A DNA stretch of 64,000 bases from a virus: positions 102,853 to 166,852 of IMG/VR virus record IMGVR_UViG_3300020057_000496. One strand, 5' to 3'. The stretch's first letter is position 1; each line of letters starts with the position of its first letter. The notes beneath the pieces were generated by a model. The model was not told the DNA's origin. It searched no databases and saw only the letters and a program-made list of their open reading frames with translations. Shown piece after piece: positions 5,781-45,597 of the stretch. A program made the translations under genes and the position numbers.

Positions 5781-6206
5781 GTGATCTTTCTCGGTGGAAC
5801 TTGCGGCAACAACGACTGGCGCAATCGTCTCTTTACGGACTTAAATAGGGCGCAAGTAAATACGGACAACCTCTACAACCCAGTAGTGCCCGACTGGACT
5901 TCTGTCGCACAGGCAAGCGAAGAGAAGGCAAAGGCGAGTGCTGAGTATTGTGTTTTCTATATTGCCAACCCTCGCTTAGATGGCGTCAATATTTCTGCTT
6001 TCTCAATGGTTGAGGCAACGATGGCACTCTACGACAGTCCAGACACGACTGTCGTGGTGTTCGACGAAGACGGGATAGAAGGACACGTACTTAAGGCGAT
6101 GCAGCGGACACGTCAGGTTCTACAGGCTCGATTCCCTACCGTCGAGTTCTTGAGTTCGTATCAAGCACTAGTAGATTACTTGATCGTAATGGCAGTCAAG
6201 AACTAA
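5781..6206 (+). CDS. Nucleoside 2-deoxyribosyltransferase-like protein
   Basis: 141 aa from GTG 5781, chosen because family similarity begins exactly there (IFLGGTCGNNDWRNRLF) and the frame upstream overlaps another gene. The GGT...WR motif, a central NPVVPDW loop, an acidic SAEYCVFYIANP segment and FSMVEATMAL fit the deoxyribosyltransferase-like Rossmann fold (Nuc_deoxyrib_tr_2). This fold cleaves or exchanges nucleobases on deoxynucleosides. Together with the NMAD1 protein it hints at nucleotide salvage or modification. Stop and next ATG overlap by one base. Confidence 0.65.
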   Translation: MIFLGGTCGNNDWRNRLFTDLNRAQVNTDNLYNPVVPDWTSVAQASEEKAKASAEYCVFYIANPRLDGVNISAFSMVEATMALYDSPDTTVVVFDEDGIEGHVLKAMQRTRQVLQARFPTVEFLSSYQALVDYLIVMAVKN

Positions 6207-7363
6207 TGCCGACGTTGCTCTTTAAGAAGGGTTCGAATGGGAAAATTATCCAGTGGCGAAACTGGGTAATTGGTGCCGAACTCCAGACCGAACACGGCCA
6301 AGTCGGAGGCAAGTTGCAGCTTACCTCTGAGGTGTTTTTCGCAGGGAAGAATATCGCCAAGTCAAACGCGACCACGGCCGAAGAGCAGGCCGAGCTGGAG
6401 GCGCAGGCGCGCTGGACGAAGAAGAAGAAATCCGGCTATGTCGTTTCACTAACAGAAGCTAGAGCTGGCGGACGTGACGTGGTGATCCAGGGGGGCGTTG
6501 ACCCGATGTTGGCACAGTCTTACTCGAAACACGCCGCAAAGATCAAGTGGCCGGCTTACAGTCAACCCAAACTCGACGGAATTAGATGTCTGGCGTTACT
6601 CACCGAAAAAGGTGACGTAACGCTGTGGTCACGGACTCGAAAGCCTATCAAGTCGATGCCTCACGTGATCAAGGCGCTCAAGGGCCTGCACGTCAAGGCA
6701 GGTACCGTCCTGGACGGCGAGTTATATTCGCATGCGGCCTGGAATGCTGTCGCCGACGAAGCCGAGGACTCGGAGTCGGCCCATAAAGTCTTGTTCGAAA
6801 AGATAACAAGCCTGGTGCGTCCGCTTGAGCCAGTACCGGGCCACGAAATTATGGAATACCACGTCTACGACATGTGTGTAGATCTACCTTTCGAACAACG
6901 ACATTGGAATTTAGCCAGGCTACTAAGGAAGGCAACCCTGCCGCTCGTCCTAGTCGAGACCTTACATTGCGAGTCCGAGCCCGACGGCGTGTCTCACTAC
7001 GGGGACTGTCTTACGCGTGGTTACGAGGGTGCGATGTTCAGGAATGCCGACTCAACCTACGAATTCGGCAAGCGCAGTTATTCGCTCCAGAAGGTCAAGC
7101 AGTTCGATGACGCCGAATACGAGATTACCGGAGTAATGGAAGGGCGTGGTAAACTTGCCGGGTGTGCGGGCTCCATGGAGTGCAGGTTGCCGAACGGAGG
7201 GGTGTTCAATGTCAAGATGAAGGGCTCCTTCGAAAGATTGCGGGAGTTCTTCCAGCATCCGCCGGTGGGAAAACTACTCACGGTGCAGTACCAAAACTTA
7301 ACGGCAGCCGGTGTACCTAGATTCCCCATTGGACTAAAGATTCTACAGGACAAGGACTACTAA
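6206..7363 (+). CDS. ATP-dependent DNA ligase
   Basis: 385 aa. The N-terminal 95 residues resemble a WGR-type domain (IIQWRNWVIGAELQTEHGQVGG), and the adenylation domain follows. Motif I is QPKLDGIRC with Lys122, then LDGEL, a YDMCVD segment, YEGAMFR (motif IV) and LQKVKQF (motif V). An OB domain ends the protein. It seals nicks in duplex DNA during phage replication. WGR plus ligase fusion is known in phages and some bacteria. Third nucleic-acid ligase in this region. Confidence 0.88.
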   Translation: MPTLLFKKGSNGKIIQWRNWVIGAELQTEHGQVGGKLQLTSEVFFAGKNIAKSNATTAEEQAELEAQARWTKKKKSGYVVSLTEARAGGRDVVIQGGVDPMLAQSYSKHAAKIKWPAYSQPKLDGIRCLALLTEKGDVTLWSRTRKPIKSMPHVIKALKGLHVKAGTVLDGELYSHAAWNAVADEAEDSESAHKVLFEKITSLVRPLEPVPGHEIMEYHVYDMCVDLPFEQRHWNLARLLRKATLPLVLVETLHCESEPDGVSHYGDCLTRGYEGAMFRNADSTYEFGKRSYSLQKVKQFDDAEYEITGVMEGRGKLAGCAGSMECRLPNGGVFNVKMKGSFERLREFFQHPPVGKLLTVQYQNLTAAGVPRFPIGLKILQDKDY

Positions 7364-14246: not shown

Positions 14247-14270
14247 TCGTGAGTAAAGGAACTTCCTGAT

Positions 14271-14309
14271 TCATCGATTCTCCGGGGCGGAAACCCCGTC
14301 CTTTAGGGC
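14271..14309 (-). repeat. Left copy of 39-nt inverted repeat with hairpin
   Basis: The reverse complement of this segment matches 21368-21406 at 38 of 39 positions. It contains a CCGGGGCGGAAACCCCG hairpin followed by a GTCCTTTAGGGC half. The style (CCCCGTCCT-TTAGGGCGGGG) is like terminal hairpins of IS200/IS605-type elements, but no transposase gene is visible. The remaining 14247-14494 spacer carries no convincing gene. Confidence 0.75.
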
Positions 14310-21242: not shown

Positions 21243-21406
21243 AGAGACGCGAGGACGGATCAGTCGTTATAAGGCTCAACGGGAGAATGGTGGTCTTCGA
21301 GAAATTGTGCTTGGATGAGGCAAAAAAAGCAGATGCTACAGGGAGGGGCCGGGCAGTAATCAACCCCGCCCTAAAGGACGGGATTTCCGCCCCGGAGAAT
21401 CGATGA
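21227..21406 (+). CDS. Small basic protein ending in the inverted repeat
   Basis: 59 aa from ATG 21227 to TGA 21406. MPRSVKRREDGSVVIRLNG, then FEKLCLDEAKKADATGRG, looks like a small beta-hairpin plus helix. The last 13 codons are made entirely by the 39-nt inverted repeat (ALKDGISAPENR), so the gene's original end was probably replaced when the repeat arrived. The TGA overlaps the macro-domain ATG. Confidence 0.45.
   Translation: MPRSVKRREDGSVVIRLNGRMVVFEKLCLDEAKKADATGRGRAVINPALKDGISAPENR
21368..21406 (+). repeat. Right copy of 39-nt inverted repeat
   Basis: Opposite in orientation to 14271-14309, with one mismatch in 39. Carries GCCCTAAAGGACGGG and TTTCCGCCCCGGAG. The two copies bound a block of about 7 kb filled with small accessory genes and no phage core gene. 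Confidence 0.85.
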
Positions 21407-21888
21407 TTCGTTATGTCAACGGGGATGCGACCTACCCAGTGGGCACTGGGTCCCGTGTAATAATACATGTAGTAAACGATTCGGGGGGTTGGGGGCGTGG
21501 CTTTGTTAGGGCCGTGACAATGCGCTGGCTGCACGTCGAGAAGGCTTACCGGGAATGGGCCAAGGCAACGAATCCGGACGTCCCGTTCGAACTAGGCAGT
21601 GTCCAGTACGTGGCGGTCGGGCAGGATCTGTGGGTCGCTAACATGGTAGGACAGCACAACGTAGTCTGGGACGACGGGGTGCCACCTGTGCGCTACGGGG
21701 CCATTCGGACGGCCCTGGCTGACGTTGCAGCCTTCGTGCGCCCACTCGCAGCGACGGTCCATGCGCCCAGGTTCGGTGCTAGTCTTGCCGGTGGCTCATG
21801 GCGCGAAATCGAAAAGCTAATCCTGGAAGAACTGGCCGATACCGACGTTACTATCTACGACATGCCTGGCGGGAAGTACAATCCTTAA
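21403..21888 (+). CDS. Macro-domain protein (ADP-ribose-1''-phosphate phosphatase-like)
   Basis: 161 aa. IRYVNGDATYP, then IIHVVNDSGGWGRGF (Asn and Gly-rich ADP-ribose loop), LGSVQYV, VANMVGQHN and the final HAPRFGASLAGGSWREIEKL follow the Poa1p/OARD1 type of macro domain. It binds or dephosphorylates ADP-ribose derivatives. In tRNA splicing by 2'-phosphate routes such enzymes clear Appr-1''-P, which would fit with the kinase and RNA ligases (inference). It could instead counter ADP-ribosylating toxins. Confidence 0.8.
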   Translation: MIRYVNGDATYPVGTGSRVIIHVVNDSGGWGRGFVRAVTMRWLHVEKAYREWAKATNPDVPFELGSVQYVAVGQDLWVANMVGQHNVVWDDGVPPVRYGAIRTALADVAAFVRPLAATVHAPRFGASLAGGSWREIEKLILEELADTDVTIYDMPGGKYNP

Positions 21889-22558: not shown

Positions 22559-22878
22559 TGGCGCGCAAGTCCGACATAGATAAATCCGTATCTGACAAGC
22601 TCGACGAACACTTACTGGAAGCCCTCGATGAGCTGAAGAAGATCGTCACGGACGCACGTCACCCGGAGCACAAGCGTCACTATTTCGAGGCGCTGCGCTT
22701 GATCATGAGGCATTGTGCGCCTGTCCGTAAGGAAATGGGTCCACCTGACCCTGGGCTAACTCTCCAGATCGGAGCGCTCTTTCCAGGTACCCAGTCCGAG
22801 CCTCGTTGTGAAATTGACGTAACTCCGTCAAGCATAGAAGAATCAGAAGAACCGGATGTCGATCCAGAACTACCTTAA
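22558..22878 (+). CDS. Probable terminase small subunit
   Basis: 106 aa, helical and charged (LDEHLLEALDELKKIVTDAR, YFEALRLIMRHCAPVRKEMG), with an acidic disordered tail. Assigned by size and by its position immediately upstream of, and overlapping, the large subunit; no sequence signature is recognised. It would recognise phage DNA for packaging. Confidence 0.6.
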   Translation: MARKSDIDKSVSDKLDEHLLEALDELKKIVTDARHPEHKRHYFEALRLIMRHCAPVRKEMGPPDPGLTLQIGALFPGTQSEPRCEIDVTPSSIEESEEPDVDPELP

Positions 22879-24310
22879 GCTTAGGCCAGAACTAAAGAAA
22901 TACGAAAACGACCCGGTCGGATTTGCGAAGGCGGTATTTAACTGCCCGATTGACCCATGGCAGGAAGAGTTTCTTTGGAACATCCAGAACCACCAAAAGG
23001 TGGCGTGTGCTGGCGCGACCGGAACGGGCAAGGGGTACGCGTCGGCACTGGCAATCTGGTGGTTCATCTCGACGAAAGAGGAGGGAGGTAAGTTTCCGAA
23101 GTTAATGTGCACCGCGCCTGACGAGAACACATTGAAGCGAGGGGTCTGGGCGCAACTTTCCGAGTTGGCGCGACAAGCTCCGTTGATTCAGCTATTGTTC
23201 ACTATTACGGCACAGAAAATTTACCTAAAGGGTGCCGAGCGTGAGTGTTTCTGTATTCTTAAAACTACATCGGCAAGATATTCCGCATCCGGCGATGCCC
23301 AGGCCGAAGGTTTGGCCGGTATGCATGCCCCCTGGACCCTTACGCTTCTTGACGAAGTAAGTGGCGTGGCAAGACCCAACGTGGAGGCCATTTTAGGTAG
23401 CTCCGTGGGGCCACAGCGCAAGGTCGTTATGACGTTCAATCCGTTGCGCGACGACGGGTATGTGTATCAGATATACACGGACAGGCGATACGGCGACGCC
23501 TGGAAGAAGATGAACGTATCATTCTATGATGTCAAAAGGCTATGTAGCGACCCGACACTAAGGGCCGAGAGGGAAAGTTGGGTAAAGACGTACGGGATGA
23601 ACTCGGCATATGTCCAGGCTCGCGTGTACGGGAAGTTCCCGACCGCAGCTACTACGAATCGAGTCTTTACTATCGACGAACTAAAGAAAGCTCGCGCACG
23701 TAACGACTCACTCGAAGACGACGACACCCAGTCAGTACAGATAGGAGTTGACGTAAGTCGCTACGGATCTGACGAGACAATTTACTACGTTCGGCGTGGA
23801 CTAAAGTCACTGGAGATGGTCTGCGAATCGCAGACGTCGGCGCCGCACGTCGAAGGCCGTACAATTGAGTTAGCCACGAAGTGGTGCCCGGAAGGTAAGG
23901 ACCCAAAGCAGCATACGTTGCTCGTCATCGACGAGACTGGACTCGGCGGTGGCCCGGTTGATCACCTACTTGAAGAGGGTTGGCTCGTGGCTGGCGTGAA
24001 TAATGGTTCGTCCCCGACGATGCCCGAAGAGTACCGAATCATGATCGACGAACTATGGCTGGAGGACGGCAAGGACGCCGTCCGTGACTGTGGGCTGGTT
24101 GACGACGACATATTAGTTAATCAACTACAGGGGCGTACTTATACGTTCACTGGCAAGATGAAGCAACGGCGCATCTCGACTAAGGACGAAATGAAAGCGA
24201 AAAAGCTGGATTCGCCTGACCGCGCCGATGCGTTTATTCTGGCGTTCGCAGACCCCGGGAAGCTGAGCTTGCGCTCGATTGACTTGAAGTCAAGCATATA
24301 TTTCCTTTGA
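22856..24310 (+). CDS. terL: Terminase large subunit
   Basis: 484 aa. ATPase: adenine-binding PWQEEFLW, Walker A GATGTGKG (53-60), Walker B TLLDEVSG (near 163-170) and coupling motif VVMTFNPLR. Nuclease: VDVSRYGSDE (298-307) with the first metal Asp, VIDETGLGGGPVDHL near 357 and DRADAFILAFAD near 455. The motor cuts and pumps DNA into proheads. A 120-bp stretch of the nuclease region is duplicated inside the prohead protease gene. Starts inside the small-subunit gene. Confidence 0.93.
   Translation: MSIQNYLKLRPELKKYENDPVGFAKAVFNCPIDPWQEEFLWNIQNHQKVACAGATGTGKGYASALAIWWFISTKEEGGKFPKLMCTAPDENTLKRGVWAQLSELARQAPLIQLLFTITAQKIYLKGAERECFCILKTTSARYSASGDAQAEGLAGMHAPWTLTLLDEVSGVARPNVEAILGSSVGPQRKVVMTFNPLRDDGYVYQIYTDRRYGDAWKKMNVSFYDVKRLCSDPTLRAERESWVKTYGMNSAYVQARVYGKFPTAATTNRVFTIDELKKARARNDSLEDDDTQSVQIGVDVSRYGSDETIYYVRRGLKSLEMVCESQTSAPHVEGRTIELATKWCPEGKDPKQHTLLVIDETGLGGGPVDHLLEEGWLVAGVNNGSSPTMPEEYRIMIDELWLEDGKDAVRDCGLVDDDILVNQLQGRTYTFTGKMKQRRISTKDEMKAKKLDSPDRADAFILAFADPGKLSLRSIDLKSSIYFL
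23741..23860 (+). repeat. Terminase nuclease segment duplicated at 27954
   Basis: Source copy of a 120-bp direct repeat; 116 of 120 bases are identical to 27954-28073. Encodes the first nuclease motif and the 25 residues after it. The reading frame is the same in both places. Confidence 0.95.
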
Positions 24311-24380: not shown

Positions 24381-26354
24381 ATGTTCGAAAGAATCAAGAG
24401 CGCTATATTTGAATCGCCAGCATCGCGCGAGATTGAACTGTCTGACACTTCGGTACAGGTACGTGGTGGTGCGCTCGCAGGTATTGCGGCCTCACGCGAT
24501 CGTTTTCTTCGTGGCTTTGACTTAACGTCGAACGGTAGTGGCGCAGTACGACTGGCGAATCCGTATCCGCAGCACGTCTCCGTGTTCCGTTGCGTGAATC
24601 TTATCGCGACGGCAGTCTCGACCATTCCATATAAGCTCCGTAACGGCGAGAAGGACGTTCTATCCGGTCCAGTGTTCAGCAAGGTAGCACAACCGAACGA
24701 ACTAATGAACTGGTCCGACCTATTGCTCAGGTTCATAACTGATTTACTTGTAGACGGAAACGCGTTCCTGCTCTGGGACGGCGAAGACCTATACCCGCTA
24801 CCTCCGTCACTAATGTCTCCAGTAATGGAAAAGGGTAGTTACGTTAATATACACCACTGGGAGAAGTCGAACGGCAGTGGCCAAAAGCCGGACAGTATCG
24901 ATCCAGCTAGCGTTATTCATATGGGGTACGCCCCTAGTATGAATAATTACATTATGGGTATTGGTCCACTTGTTTCCGCCAAGATCGTAGTTGATGCCGA
25001 CTATGCGTCTATGTGGAATAACCTTACAACACTGAATGGTGGCGGTCTGCCGGCCGGGATTCTGAAGTTCGTCGGCAAGGGGATGTTGACCGAGACGATG
25101 CGTAACGACATTCGCGAGACGTGGCGGCGTACGTTCGGTGGCCCCAATGCGGGCTCTCGACTGGCCGTTATTAATCAGGACTGGTCATGGATGCCGACGG
25201 GTGCGACGAACGCCGAGCTTGAATCAACAAAACACCGAGACTGGAATCTCTCGGACATTTGCCGAGCGTTCAACGTACCTAAGCTTTATTTATTCGAACA
25301 AGAACGCGGAGCGGTCGGTGACGCCACGATCAAGGTTCACCAGAAGATGTTCTATTACAATTGCATTATTCCGATTACGCGTAGACTTGAGGCTAAGCTG
25401 AACAAACAGCTCATGCCACTGCTTGGCGGACGCAACATCGTCGGAAGGTTCGATTTTGAGGAAGTCGAGGCGCTACGCGGCGACTTCAGTGAAAAGGTCA
25501 AGACTGCACAGATCCTCGTAAAGATGGGTTTTTCTCCCAATTCAGTGAACAAGAACCTGGGCCTTGGACAGGAAGATATGCCCTGGGGTGACGACTTTCT
25601 TGCTCCGATCAATCTCGTCCCCGCACAGGACATTGTTGACCACGAAGTTGTTCTACCTAGCGGTAGTGACGGAAAGATTGGCGGCATCGGCAGTGATCAA
25701 ATAGACAATGCGAAAGACACGGCACCCCCGACGAAGGCTTCCGCGACGCACTGGGAGACCCTCTCCACGCCGGTCGAAAACCTGATTGACGAAGCAAGCG
25801 GCAGGAGTCGGCGGGCGCTCTCTAAGGACCGAACCCGTATCCTGAGTGGGGACAGTGACGGCTTTGATGGCCCGGCTCTTATTGAGAAGTTGATGCCGTA
25901 TATCGTTAAGTCGTTCGTGCACGGGTATAAGACTGTCGATTTGAACCAAGACGAGGCGCTAAGGCTAGGTGCCGTATACGGTAATTCTCGATATGAAGAG
26001 ATTGCCGCATTTACAATTGCCCTTTCTGGGTTGCTGAGGATTGATCTGACGGAGACCGACAAGGACCGTGTTTTGCGCAACTTGCTCAATCGGATCATTA
26101 GGAAAATTAATGACCTATGTACGGCTGAAATTTATTCTGCCTACAACCATGCGCGGTATGCCGCGATACGTGCGACGAACTATAGTGAGGCGATTTGGGT
26201 AGCTGCACCGGAAGCTCGTTGTGATGACAGCAGTAACCACGGTCACGTCAGGATTCTTGGAGAGCAATTCCCAACCGGGCACAGATACCCAGGCGATCGT
26301 AAGGCGATCGTAGCGGTTGATTGTGATTGCATTATTTGCCCGAAGCTTAGCTAA
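24381..26354 (+). CDS. Portal protein with C-terminal MuF-like region
   Basis: 657 aa. HK97-type portal features: FRCVNLIATAVSTIPYKL, LLVDGNAFLLWDGE, PASVIHMGYAPSMNNYIMGI and the LGLGQEDMPWGDDF wing. The family is usually near 400-450 aa; the extra C-terminus (from about 460) ends in NHARYAAIRATNYSEAIWVA, then CDDSSNHGHVRILGE and CDCIICP. That resembles the head-morphogenesis MuF domain, so it may be a portal-MuF fusion. It forms the DNA entry ring of the head. A possible promoter (TTCATG, 18 nt, TATGAT) precedes it. Confidence 0.88.
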   Translation: MFERIKSAIFESPASREIELSDTSVQVRGGALAGIAASRDRFLRGFDLTSNGSGAVRLANPYPQHVSVFRCVNLIATAVSTIPYKLRNGEKDVLSGPVFSKVAQPNELMNWSDLLLRFITDLLVDGNAFLLWDGEDLYPLPPSLMSPVMEKGSYVNIHHWEKSNGSGQKPDSIDPASVIHMGYAPSMNNYIMGIGPLVSAKIVVDADYASMWNNLTTLNGGGLPAGILKFVGKGMLTETMRNDIRETWRRTFGGPNAGSRLAVINQDWSWMPTGATNAELESTKHRDWNLSDICRAFNVPKLYLFEQERGAVGDATIKVHQKMFYYNCIIPITRRLEAKLNKQLMPLLGGRNIVGRFDFEEVEALRGDFSEKVKTAQILVKMGFSPNSVNKNLGLGQEDMPWGDDFLAPINLVPAQDIVDHEVVLPSGSDGKIGGIGSDQIDNAKDTAPPTKASATHWETLSTPVENLIDEASGRSRRALSKDRTRILSGDSDGFDGPALIEKLMPYIVKSFVHGYKTVDLNQDEALRLGAVYGNSRYEEIAAFTIALSGLLRIDLTETDKDRVLRNLLNRIIRKINDLCTAEIYSAYNHARYAAIRATNYSEAIWVAAPEARCDDSSNHGHVRILGEQFPTGHRYPGDRKAIVAVDCDCIICPKLS

Positions 26355-26372
26355 CCACATACGGAGATTAAT

Positions 26373-28289
26373 ATGAAATACAATCACACTACACTAATTC
26401 CCGGCGAACAGCCCAATACTAGCGAATTCGCGTGGGTCCCTACTCTTCTCGATAATTCACTACTGGCAAGGGCTGCCATTGATACTGACGAGATTGCTCC
26501 AGTTAGGTTCGAAGATCCGAAGGTTGACCAGCGCTGGACGCAGCTTCGGCAGTTCGGACTTGATCTTCCGGGTAAGGACCTGTCGGTAGATCTTGATGCC
26601 AACAAGCGTATTCTCCTGCAGCGCGGGATGCACCTCCGTCAGGTGATTCCGGCCCCAGATATGGGCGACGGAGTTGTACAGTTTATCGCCGCGACGGAAG
26701 GCATCAAGCGTGACGGTAATATGCTGCTCAATAGTGGCTGGAAGTTCGATAATTTCGCGAAGAACCCCGTATTTCTTTTTCAGCACGACTACTCGCAGCT
26801 TCCGATCGGCAAGCACCTCGCCTGGCAGGTAGACAGCGACGGCGGCAAGCCTGTTCTGCGTATCTGGAGCCGCTTCGTTTCTGCCGACATCTACCCGTTC
26901 GCCGAGCGTGTTCGTATGATGTACGAGAAGGGCTTTCTTCGTGCCGTAAGTATCGGCTGGATTCCACTTAAGTACTCGGCTGTTAAAAACGAAGAAGATA
27001 TCCAGACTGGCTGGCTGTTCGAAGAGAACGAGCTACTGGAAGTCAGCGCTGTTTCCGTCCCCGCAGATCCGGATGCCATTATCCAGGGTATTAACCAGCG
27101 CATCCTGGAGCCTAGTGATATCGAGCAGATGGCTACGTATGTAGATTCTATCCGTGCGTACCGGAACATCGTCCACGTCGTATCGAACATCGATTCGGCG
27201 ATCTCGGCCCGTGCGGAGGTTGAGTCTGATCCCGAAGTCAAGTTGGAACTTGTAGCTGACGAGCCGGTGGTCGAAGTTGTTGTCGAGCCAGCAGCCGTAG
27301 ATGAAGCCGCAGTTGAAACCCCAGTCGAGGCCGTGGTCGAGGCGGCGACTGAGACGGTCGGCGGCGTTGAGGAGGCTTCCAATGAGTCGAATTATCGACT
27401 CAACGCCGAAGACTCCGTAGTTCATTCCTTCCCGGAGTGGACTTCGACGCTTACCGGTATGCGCGATCTACTGACTAGTGGGAATCACGCATTCGGTGGT
27501 GAGCCGTACAGTGCGGCGCGCGAAGACAGGCACAGGGAACTTGTGGCTACGTATGAAAGTGCCGGACGGAAGGCTCCTACTTTTGATGAAGTAGAAACTG
27601 TCTATCAAGTGTCGCGACAGCTCTATAGTCGAGGTCTTGCACATCTAGATAAGTACGAAGCTGCGACTGACGCCGAGCTTATTGAAGGGCTACTCTACGT
27701 CGGAGCCTCATATCCAGATGAACTAGCGGACATTCTCGGCCAGGTCCGTGACGCCGTGGACAGGCTGCACGACACGACCCGTGACTTCTCGTTAGCGGTG
27801 GAGCGTGTTGGTTCGAAAATTTCGAAGGATACACGCAAGTCTCTAATGGAGTGCGACTACTGCCTTGAACAGGCACGTACGCATCTGAAAAAGTTAATGA
27901 CAGCGGCCGACAACCTAGACGACTACGGCGAGAATGACCACGCATCGGCAATTATAGGAGTTGACGTAAGTCGCTACGGATCTGACGAGACAATTCACTA
28001 CGTTCGGCGTGGACTAAAGTCACTGGATATGGTCGGCGAATCGCAGACGTCGGCGCCGCACGTCGAGGGCCGTGTCGTGGGCGACGATTTCATTTTGAAT
28101 GACAGAATCAAGAAGGTAAGGCGTACATTCACCGGCGAACCTGAGCCCGTAAGTGTGGACGACGTCCTGGCGCGAGTGACTCGAATGAAAGCTTCACTAG
28201 CGGAAGAAGTCGTCGCGGACGTGTCCCGGACGAGTCGGTCTGAGTATATTCGTTCCTTGCTACAGAAAATTATCGACTCACAGTCGTAA
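26373..28289 (+). CDS. Prohead serine protease with long C-terminal extension
   Basis: 638 aa. Residues about 100-250 are the HK97/S78-type protease with FLFQHDYSQLPIG (His138) and RAVSIGWIP (Ser193). Residues 290-340 are Val/Glu/Ala repeats. The following helical half could serve as scaffold. Residues 528-567 are a near-exact copy of a TerL nuclease segment (VDVSRYGSDETIHYVRRG) not expected in a protease. The protein would process scaffold and capsid N-termini during head maturation. A palindrome of the GAGTCG type occurs at 27384-27401. Confidence 0.88.
   Translation: MKYNHTTLIPGEQPNTSEFAWVPTLLDNSLLARAAIDTDEIAPVRFEDPKVDQRWTQLRQFGLDLPGKDLSVDLDANKRILLQRGMHLRQVIPAPDMGDGVVQFIAATEGIKRDGNMLLNSGWKFDNFAKNPVFLFQHDYSQLPIGKHLAWQVDSDGGKPVLRIWSRFVSADIYPFAERVRMMYEKGFLRAVSIGWIPLKYSAVKNEEDIQTGWLFEENELLEVSAVSVPADPDAIIQGINQRILEPSDIEQMATYVDSIRAYRNIVHVVSNIDSAISARAEVESDPEVKLELVADEPVVEVVVEPAAVDEAAVETPVEAVVEAATETVGGVEEASNESNYRLNAEDSVVHSFPEWTSTLTGMRDLLTSGNHAFGGEPYSAAREDRHRELVATYESAGRKAPTFDEVETVYQVSRQLYSRGLAHLDKYEAATDAELIEGLLYVGASYPDELADILGQVRDAVDRLHDTTRDFSLAVERVGSKISKDTRKSLMECDYCLEQARTHLKKLMTAADNLDDYGENDHASAIIGVDVSRYGSDETIHYVRRGLKSLDMVGESQTSAPHVEGRVVGDDFILNDRIKKVRRTFTGEPEPVSVDDVLARVTRMKASLAEEVVADVSRTSRSEYIRSLLQKIIDSQS
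27954..28073 (+). repeat. Inserted copy of terminase nuclease segment
   Basis: 116 of 120 bases identical to 23741-23860, in frame. Three residues differ from TerL (Tyr to His, Glu to Asp, Cys to Gly). The sequence on each side is unrelated to TerL, so it is an inserted or recombined fragment rather than shared ancestry of whole genes. Confidence 0.95.
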
Positions 28290-28483
28290 ATTTGCATCTT
28301 CTTTTTATTATACAATAGTATAAGTCCTAGACGGTAGTCGGCAACCATTTGCAACGATTACAACGTCGAAGATTAACTTAGTCGAATGTCGGCTAGGTAA
28401 GTAGGAATCTTAGTTCATAACAAAATATCTTCGGTCGCCAAGAGCGACGGCGTTGTTGAGACGCGGCAAAGGAGTTGATTACT
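28290..28483 (+). other. Intergenic leader of the capsid gene
   Basis: No gene seen. Contains AT-rich TTATTATACAATAGTATAAG near 28305 that could hold a promoter -10 (TATACA or TATAAG), and a strong AAAGGAG ribosome site at 28468-28474 for the capsid ATG. Confidence 0.45.
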
Positions 28484-29752
28484 ATGTCTACCAAAGTTTT
28501 TGATATCGATCCAAAGGACAATCTGCACCCAATCATGGAGGCGCTTGAAGTTATCGAGCATGCCCAGAAGGAAAGTGCAAAGAAGCAGACCGAAGTCGCC
28601 GAGACCTCGATCCGCGAAATCGAGTCCGTCAAGGGTGCCCTGGCAGAGATGAAGCAGACGTGTGAGCGTCTGGATAAGGCTCTTCCGAAGGGTTCGAAGG
28701 TTTATCAGGCATCATCGCCTGACAAGACGCGCGGCATGTACAACCTTGGCCGTTGCATTACGGAGGCATGGCGCGTCAAGCAGTACGGCCAGACTTCACG
28801 CGATTTCGCCGAACTACAACGTGATCTAAGTTCAGGCGGTGGCCAGAAGGAAACTTCTGGTTCGGCAACCGGTGACTTGCTCGTTCCGACGATCATCTAT
28901 CCGGACATTGCTCGCCTGATTGGCGAGGCTTCTATTATCCGTCGAGTGGGTACCGTCATTCCGATGAGTTCACTGACGATGAAGCTGCCAACCAAGGGCA
29001 CTGGTCCTTCGGTGTCGTGGCCCAATGAAGGTATTGCTCCGAGCCAGACGTCAGTCGTCCTGCAGGACAAGACCCTTACGGCCAAGACCATGATGGCCCT
29101 GTCTGAGATCACCTCAGAGCTTACGGAAGATTCCGTGGTCGCACTGGAGCCCTTTTTCGCTCGTCTCTTCGCAGAGGCGGTTGCGCAAGAAGAGAACCAG
29201 AAGGCATTCTCTTCGACGACTATCTTTACCGGCGTTGGAACTGACGCTGACGTTACCTTGAAGTACTTCGGTAACTCGATCAGCTCGGGCAAGCGTGCCT
29301 TCTCGGACATCACTCACCAGGACCTCGTTCGGCTACAGTTCGCTGTAGATTCGAAGGTTGTTCACAAGGGTGCGTTCGTTCTTTCTAGTGCAGCATTCTC
29401 GAACATCGTCGGAATGCGCGACACCCAGGAGCGCCCTCTCTATATGACGAGTTGGAATGCCCTGCCTGGAATCGACAATGCCCCGGATCAGGTTCTTCCT
29501 ACCCCAACACAGATCATGGGTCGCCCGGCGTATCTTACCGATACGATGCCGGGTACGTCCAGTAATGTCCAGCTCTTCGCACTCTACGCAGACTGGAGCA
29601 AGTTCGTGTTCGGCGACCGTGCCGAACTGCGAATCGACTGGTCAGACCAGGTGTTCTTCGAGTCTGGCAACCTTGCCCTGCGCGTTCGTGAGCGTATCGG
29701 CATGATCACGGCAATTCCCGGTGCATTCGCGAGACTTTCGACTGCCGTCTAA
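28484..29752 (+). CDS. Major capsid protein, HK97 fold
   Basis: 422 aa from ATG 28484, 9 bases after AAAGGAG. Residues 20-75 form the coiled-coil delta domain (IMEALEVIEHAQKESAKKQT, then IREIESVKGALAEMK), which acts as built-in scaffold and is usually removed by the protease. The fold proper starts around GDLLVPTIIYPDIARLI, with E-loop MKLPTKGTGPSVSWPNEG and the spine MMALSEITSELTEDS. Forms the icosahedral shell. Confidence 0.93.
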   Translation: MSTKVFDIDPKDNLHPIMEALEVIEHAQKESAKKQTEVAETSIREIESVKGALAEMKQTCERLDKALPKGSKVYQASSPDKTRGMYNLGRCITEAWRVKQYGQTSRDFAELQRDLSSGGGQKETSGSATGDLLVPTIIYPDIARLIGEASIIRRVGTVIPMSSLTMKLPTKGTGPSVSWPNEGIAPSQTSVVLQDKTLTAKTMMALSEITSELTEDSVVALEPFFARLFAEAVAQEENQKAFSSTTIFTGVGTDADVTLKYFGNSISSGKRAFSDITHQDLVRLQFAVDSKVVHKGAFVLSSAAFSNIVGMRDTQERPLYMTSWNALPGIDNAPDQVLPTPTQIMGRPAYLTDTMPGTSSNVQLFALYADWSKFVFGDRAELRIDWSDQVFFESGNLALRVRERIGMITAIPGAFARLSTAV

Positions 29753-29773
29753 CGCCTAGTCGGATTTAACTAA

Positions 29774-29838
29774 GAGTCGAATTACGACTCACCCCTAGAA
29801 ATGGGTTGGCTCTGGAAACGGAGTCAGCCCATTTCTTT
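29774..29838 (+). terminator. Capsid-gene terminator preceded by GAGTCG palindrome
   Basis: GAGTCG-AATTA-CGACTC (29774-29790) is followed by AGAAATGGG...CCCATTTCT (about 29798-29836), a long stem ending in TTTTA. This is a plausible rho-independent terminator after the highly expressed capsid gene. Confidence 0.75.
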
Positions 29839-29857
29839 TACAGCCCAGGAGAAATAT

Positions 29858-30007
29858 ATGATTAAACAAGAGGCGCTCGACAAGGCCCCTGCCGCGAAGG
29901 CAAAAGAAAAGAAACTCAAGCCCAAGCTGGGTAAGGTGTACGAATACGTAAAGGGGTCGTCATTCCCGGCCCGACACGGGCGGATCAGTAACGTAGTTAC
30001 TCGGTAA
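29858..30007 (+). CDS. Small basic protein
   Basis: 49 aa from ATG 29858 with CAGGAGAAATAT upstream. Lys/Ala-rich (KAPAAKAKEKKLKPKLGKVY), then FPARHGRISNVVTR. Position directly after the major capsid protein is where small head-decoration or completion proteins are often found, but no family is recognised. Confidence 0.45.
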   Translation: MIKQEALDKAPAAKAKEKKLKPKLGKVYEYVKGSSFPARHGRISNVVTR

Positions 30008-30052
30008 GAAAGAGTTTCACTTTCTGTTTGAATTGGGCTAGACTGGCGTGAC

Positions 30053-44085: not shown

Positions 44086-44866
44086 ATGAACATCTTAACA
44101 TTAAAGGAACAGGAATCCGTAGGGAGGATTGAACCAAATAGCTTGATTAAAGCAGACTGCTTACATGCTATGAAGTTTATCGCAGACAAAAGCATCGATA
44201 TGGTGCTCTGCGATCCTCCCTACGGATAGTGGCACCACGGCTTGCAAATGGGATACAGTCATCCCATTTGAACCTATGTGGGCGCAGCTCAAGCGCATTG
44301 TGAAGCCGAACGGGGCGATTGTGCTGACGGCATCGCAGCCGTTCACGTCGGCGCTTGGGGCTTCAAATCTCACCATGCTTAGGTACTCTTGGATATGGAA
44401 AAAAACAGCGGCGACAGGGCATCTGAATGCGAGACGTATGCCTATGTCAGACAGTGAAGACATTCTTGTTTTTTACCGTCACCAACCTGTTTACAACCCC
44501 CAAGGTTTGACACCCCACGGAAAAACTACTCGGCGTGGTGGGAATGGTGGATGCTATGGTGAAAGCGGAAAAGAAAACTTCCAAGAGTTTACAAATTATC
44601 CTCGACGTACTTTAGAAATTGCGTCTCAAGGTGGTACAGTCCACCCCACCCAGAAGCCTGTCGCCCTGATGGAATACCTGATCCGCACCTACACCAACGA
44701 GGGCGAAACCGTTCTGGACTTCACGATGGGCAGCGGGACAACCGGAGTCGCCTGCATCCGCGCAGGCCGCAAATTCATCGGCATAGAGAAAGACCCGACG
44801 CACTACGCCACGGCACTGAAACGAATCACCGACGAATCACCGACGGACTCGCCTGCAGCTCGCTGA
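44086..44866 (+). pseudogene. DNA methyltransferase (N6-adenine/N4-cytosine, beta order), frameshifted
   Basis: ATG 44086 reads MNILTLKEQESVGRIEPNSL to CDPPYG and then hits TAG at 44227. Shifting +1 at that point continues as SGTTACKWDTVIPFEPMWAQ to the end at 44866. The catalytic DPPY comes before the SAM motif DFTMGSGTTG, the beta-class order; HPTQKPVALMEYLIR is also typical. So a one-base insertion, or a +1 recoding event at the stop, splits the gene. The second piece has its own ATG at 44276. The gene sits between direct repeats like a cassette. Confidence 0.8.
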
Positions 44867-45003: not shown

Positions 45004-45243
45004 ATGCCGTCATCTACTGGAGGGCTTACTGGCCGTAAAAATGTAACTGGAAGAATAACTGGAGCAACTTCTGCTGGAGGGCTCACTGGCCGTAAAAACG
45101 GAACTGGAAGAATAACTGGAGCAAATTCCTCAGCGTCGACGATCACCCCTGCGGAGGTCTTCTGGTACCGGAAGGGGAAGGGGTACTTCAGTAGACTTGA
45201 TTTTGACAGTGTAGTTGACAATGCTGTCGTAAGCGACGGATAA
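45004..45243 (+). CDS. Tandem-repeat protein, fibre-associated
   Basis: 79 aa, ATG with AAAGGAAAAT upstream. Two 19-residue tandem units, each STGGLTGRKNVTGRITGAT or a close variant, precede a short C-terminal domain with EVFWYRKGKGYFSRLDFD. The Gly/Thr repeats look like fibre or decoration material. Family unknown. Confidence 0.55.
   Translation: MPSSTGGLTGRKNVTGRITGATSAGGLTGRKNGTGRITGANSSASTITPAEVFWYRKGKGYFSRLDFDSVVDNAVVSDG
45010..45123 (+). repeat. 57-bp tandem repeat (2 units) within gene
   Basis: TCTACTGGAGGGCTTACTGG and following bases repeat with a few changes 57 bases later. The unit length is a multiple of three, so the repeat number can vary without breaking the frame. Confidence 0.85.
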
Positions 45244-45249
45244 CTAGAT

Positions 45250-45597
45250 ATGATATTCGGCGGAACTGGAATCGAGATAGACGCCGGCAGCGACCTCTAT
45301 ATGGGGGCGATTGTCGACCCCTCGCGCGAGGCGGTATGGATTCCCCTGCCCAGTGTCTCGATGACTCATCTCTATGTCGCGTCGAGCCTGGCGCCGGGGG
45401 CGGGCGAAACATACGTCTTTACGGTCTACAAGAACACGGTCGCAACGTTGATGGTGGCAACCATCTCTAATTCGGAGACCTCGTCAAGCTATGTTGGAAC
45501 TATCACCTTTGCCGCAGGTGACAAGTTCTCTGTTAGAATCGTTTCGTCGGCAGGTGCGAGCACCGGTTTCGTGACATACTCGGCAAGAATCGAGTAG
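45250..45597 (+). CDS. Beta-rich virion-associated protein
   Basis: 115 aa. Mostly beta strands with Gly/Ser/Thr (THLYVASSLAPGAGETYVFT, SYVGTITFAAGDKFSVRIVS), like head or fibre accessory jelly-roll modules (TNF/collar-type). No specific family recognised. Placed between the tandem-repeat protein and the fibre proteins. Confidence 0.5.
   Translation: MIFGGTGIEIDAGSDLYMGAIVDPSREAVWIPLPSVSMTHLYVASSLAPGAGETYVFTVYKNTVATLMVATISNSETSSSYVGTITFAAGDKFSVRIVSSAGASTGFVTYSARIE

Follow-up and report, generated by a model that had tools for sequence, protein, structure and literature searches.

The DNA analysed here (the window) is a stretch of 64,000 nucleotides, bases 102,853-166,852 of the IMG/VR virus record IMGVR_UViG_3300020057_000496, a sequence of 166,852 bp from an uncultivated phage. 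It contains the genes for the terminase large subunit (TerL), the portal protein, the prohead protease and the major capsid protein, in this order (Table 1). Positions refer to the window, unless they are called record positions.

Table 1. Genes and repeat copies of the head gene region, in window positions
Feature	Position	Strand	Evidence
terL, terminase large subunit, 484 aa (donor gene)	22856..24310	+	PHROG 2, conserved motifs, AlphaFold model, Sf6 gp2 match
Donor segment, TerL residues 296-335	23741..23860	+	repeat; model secondary structure; invariant residues
Portal protein gene, between the two copies	24381..26354	+	Pfam PF04860, E 5e-50
Prohead protease, 638 aa (recipient gene)	26373..28289	+	Pfam PF04586, E 1.4e-7
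Copied patch, protease residues 528-567	27954..28073	+	116/120 bases identical to terL 23741-23860
Major capsid protein gene, HK97 fold family (context)	28475..29752	+	Pfam PF05065, E 8e-34

A terL segment in the prohead protease gene

A gapless direct repeat of 120 bp, 97% identical, connects the terL and protease genes (blastn E ~4e-51). This pair is the only direct-repeat family of at least 25 bp reported in the 20-34 kb region of the window, and no further match to the segment was found elsewhere in the whole record. The copies are spaced by 4,213 bp, around the portal gene. Both start at codon position 1, which confirms the preliminary description of a terL piece carried by the protease gene in the same frame. 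The four mismatches (terL/protease: 23783/27996, T/C; 23815/28028, G/T; 23822/28035, T/G; 23854/28067, A/G) comprise three replacements (Y310/H542, E320/D552 and C323/G555) and one silent change (E333/E565), leaving 37 of the 40 amino acids identical. The patch amounts to 8% of TerL and 6% of the protease.

Beyond the repeat, the DNA flanks are at background, with 33-43% identity upstream and 17-28% downstream over 12-120 bases. The protein flanks gave shuffle p values of 0.03-0.13 upstream, depending on the length compared, and of at least 0.85 downstream, and are not convincingly similar. The surroundings of the patch are thus unrelated, as had been described, and the terL fragment in the protease gene is a real copy with sharp ends.

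The donor gene belongs to the terminase large subunit family, with a profile match to PHROG 2 (E 6.6e-27) and an AlphaFold model (mean pLDDT 86) whose best PDB match is the Sf6 gp2 terminase (E 5.8e-21, Foldseek), followed by other terminases. In an alignment of 38 TerL proteins (this one and 37 relatives at ~30% identity), G297, D299, R302, G304 and D306 are invariant, as are the acidic nuclease residues D359 and D455, while D458 is nearly invariant. The model places β-strands at residues 294-299, 307-314 and 317-325 and a helix at 329-343, so that the donor segment corresponds to strands β1-β3 and the start of the next helix of a predicted RNase H-like nuclease, including the motif I aspartate D299. 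Judging from these sequences, the stretch is native to TerL, being carried by all of its relatives, and TerL is the source of the patch; the copying was directed from terL to the protease gene.

The first catalytic Asp motif lies inside the patch, as previously noted (D299 in TerL, D531 in the copy). However, the regions of D359 and D455/D458 were not copied. With one of the three acidic motifs, the patch cannot act as a nuclease on its own. Like the donor TerL, Sf6 gp2 (PDB 4idh) is a large subunit with an ATPase and an RNase H-like nuclease, whereas the copy in the protease has only the nuclease strands β1-β3.

The recipient protein contains a Peptidase_S78 domain at residues 132-240 (PF04586, 32.2 bits, cut-off 21). 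The patch lies outside this domain, in a lineage-specific C-terminal extension (residues 255-638) for which no convincing match was found among phage records or PHROG families. Since the extension matches no known family, the name "scaffold region", which the preliminary description gave to this part, would be a presumptive label. A structure model of the protease predicted from the single sequence, with no alignment, was too poor for use (pLDDT 36). The frame is open and codon-biased on either side of the patch, and among the forward frames the codon usage favors the same one before, within and after it, implying that the protein most likely reads through the patch.

Reading frame, divergence and age

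The shared frame had been regarded as remarkable. The frame is indeed kept, but this is largely explained by survival: only two of the six frames of the patch are free of stops, the TerL frame (+0) and one reverse frame (-2), and the other four contain stops. Given that only two open frames were available to a surviving copy, the shared frame says little in favor of a function. The three replacements and one silent change correspond to a pN of 0.033 and a pS of 0.033, a ratio of ~1 that carries little weight with four changes. This ratio gives no sign of a conserved protein sequence and may reflect relaxed constraint on one copy or both.

Two other IMG/VR contigs represent strains of the same phage. 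Contig 3300015360_001087 has 15 differences from the window in 14.8 kb of sequence, and contig 3300020213_000276 has 45 in 17.9 kb. The comparison with relatives that had been proposed shows that both copies are kept, with zero differences from those of the window, so that the patch is present in three assemblies. The transfer had been called recent, which holds only in a relative sense: the copies differ from each other by 3.3%, as against 0.1-0.25% between the strains. The patch is thus probably older than the strain split, and much older if the rates were similar. Part of the 3.3% may be older than the transfer, if the terL gene of another phage was the donor. The retention of an open 40-codon piece beyond the strain divergence could also indicate a role.

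Searches of viral contigs with the protease, TerL, portal and capsid proteins, and of genome contigs with the protease and capsid proteins, revealed no relative that has an empty site; the matches listed were only the two near-identical contigs or TerL relatives at ~30% identity. Attempts to assemble a protease family from related loci yielded none. A second terL piece was absent at 190 other terL loci, with 1.66 Mb of flanking sequence, where short flanks or diverged copies could let one escape.

Origin of the patch

Among the three readings that had been offered, a recombination scar fits best with the sharp ends and the unrelated flanks. We consider it likely, with a probability of about 0.7, that the patch is a duplication of terL sequence tolerated in the protease extension, made by non-homologous recombination or template switching. 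In a single copy-and-paste event, 120 bp of terL would have entered the protease gene towards its 3' end, leaving terL itself intact; the route would have been template switching or another form of non-homologous recombination during replication of the phage. The patch would have survived because the frame was kept, this frame is free of stops, and the site lies in the C-terminal extension outside the S78 catalytic domain. It would now encode 40 residues that the protein tolerates and that by themselves have no nuclease activity. The extension itself is probably dispensable or degraded during head maturation. Recombination between the direct repeats would delete part of terL, the portal gene and most of the protease gene, so that the duplication looks more like a liability than an evident advantage.

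The event is real, uncommon and mechanistically ordinary, and a function, though possible, has no support. It is uncommon in that no in-frame patch between two ORFs was found in nine comparison phage records, and no second terL piece at the 190 other terL loci. A search of the record for a reverse transcriptase (PF00078) gave no match, so that a reverse-transcribed origin is unlikely; a diversity-generating retroelement was rejected on the same ground and because the changes have no adenine bias.

Comparable processes are known. Illegitimate or homeologous phage recombination, by lambda Red and related recombinases, leaves patches of >90% identity whose borders carry no signal (PMC2327257). 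The terL patch is likewise sharp-edged and free of border signals, but it was copied ectopically inside a single head module, whereas those are exchanges between phage genomes. A survey of recently emerged protein mosaicism in phages found fragments of at least 70-90% identity common to otherwise unrelated proteins (PMC10684548, Nat Commun 2023). The cases highlighted there are receptor-binding proteins, endolysins, and neck and replication proteins, the fragments are at least 50 aa long, and neither terminase nor protease is named in the main text. The present case resembles these in that a fragment of at least 90% identity makes up no more than half of two unrelated proteins. It differs in joining two head genes within one genome and, at 40 aa, in lying below the detection size of that survey. 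Searches of the open-licence literature yielded no account of a prohead protease that carries a TerL piece. The patch is a clean example of a phage pasting a piece of one head gene into another with the reading frame kept open. Judging from this case, insertions seem to be tolerated in the C-terminal extension of this prohead protease.

The patch may instead have come from the terL gene of a related co-infecting phage, with part of the 3.3% difference already present before the transfer. Phage mosaicism through recombination of co-infecting phages is well documented (PMC2327257), and the difference between the copies far exceeds that among the sampled strains. On the other hand, three of the four differences are replacements, whereas a functional terL gene would be expected to contribute mostly silent ones, an argument that rests on four changes; in addition, the matches listed include no related TerL that exceeds 33% identity along the entire protein. 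We regard a foreign donor as rather unlikely, although it is the strongest of the alternatives to a copy of the phage's own terL.

A functional tag, with the β1-β3 piece serving as an interface for the terminase, the portal or another packaging partner, seems improbable. The patch sits in a head gene adjoining the packaging genes, with its frame kept and its presence shared by three assemblies. However, the pN/pS ratio of ~1, the lack of most of the nuclease fold and of two of the three acidic motifs, the single copy at other terL loci, and the lack of any relative showing conservation all argue against it, and the earlier proposal of a tag for a terminase partner found no support. Still less probable is that the β1-β3 piece is a working part of the protease, docking onto the packaging machine or mimicking the nuclease surface, so that head maturation would be coupled to packaging. 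A functional patch would tie the evolution of the terminase physically and directly to that of the protease.

The chance is slimmer again that terL and the protease gene share a longer and older homology, of which 120 bp were later homogenized by gene conversion. The weak match just upstream of the patch (LKK.....N.L.D, with the variable shuffle p values given above) would fit such a history, but it is not significant when 60 residues are compared, no match is found downstream, and the DNA flanks are at background; a longer flank homology was therefore rejected as not convincing. The metagenomic nature of the record raises the question of an assembly or amplification chimera. Three assemblies that differ by strain-level SNPs share the junctions and the same four differences between the copies, and a chimeric copy would normally be expected to be identical to its source, which makes a chimera very unlikely; mis-assembly was rejected, given the same junctions in two further contigs.

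Terminase genes often contain a packaging site or lie close to one, and the preliminary description had suggested a packaging-signal duplication, but this found no support. A duplicated DNA or RNA signal (a packaging site or a structured RNA) is the least credible origin, since the patch folds no better than its shuffles (z +0.53), the frame and codon usage of the copy are those of coding sequence, and in terL the same sequence is an ordinary coding stretch for a conserved motif region.

Other repeats and elements of the record

Dispersed repeat pairs, defined by a length of 80 bp or more, an identity of 85% or more and a spacing of 500 bp or more, number 16 in the record, compared with five in phage T4, which is nearly the same size, and zero to six in eight other contigs of 56-76 kb. 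Several of the pairs involve a TnpB-like gene (record 26251-27441) together with fragments that resemble its 3' end. Others are not related to TnpB, which indicates that patch copying has been repeated in this genome.

One of these is a second in-frame patch, of 218 bp and 93% identity (record 57079-57296 and 62241-62458). Its hosts (L100 and L101) are an 84-aa ORF (57051-57305, - strand) and the middle of a 213-aa ORF (62003-62644, - strand). With a pS of 0.135 and a pN of 0.055, this patch suggests some conservation of the encoded protein piece. In addition, 380 bp (record 6163-6542) of an 810-aa ORF are duplicated, at 88% identity and ~142 kb away, at window 45208-45587 (record 148060-148439). 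The 810-aa ORF is tail-fibre-like by appearance only. Its copy, which falls in the region spanned by the second strain contig, forms a truncated ORF of 115 aa that is closely preceded by an in-frame stop.

The record contains three TnpB-like (OrfB_IS605) genes, at record 26251-27441, ~44202-44492 and 74504-74803; the stretches resembling the 3' end of the first, at record 19610, 20657, 25381, 26199 and 42532, are possibly decayed elements. An intein with a LAGLIDADG homing endonuclease lies inside a glycosyltransferase gene (window 30053-32251), and further intein or LAGLIDADG matches are found at record 28524-30440, 30407-32779 and 96820-99723. An AAA_24 protein (record 94628-95533) offers a possible lead to a recombinase. 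Record ~61.9-75.4 kb is densely filled with repeats of 60-300 bp, many of which lie outside long ORFs; among them are three similar stretches of ~90-140 bp, at record 61885, 62687 and 63367. Finally, a near-perfect inverted repeat of 42 bp has its copies 7 kb apart (window 14268-14309 and 21368-21409), and one position of the second copy varies between the strains.
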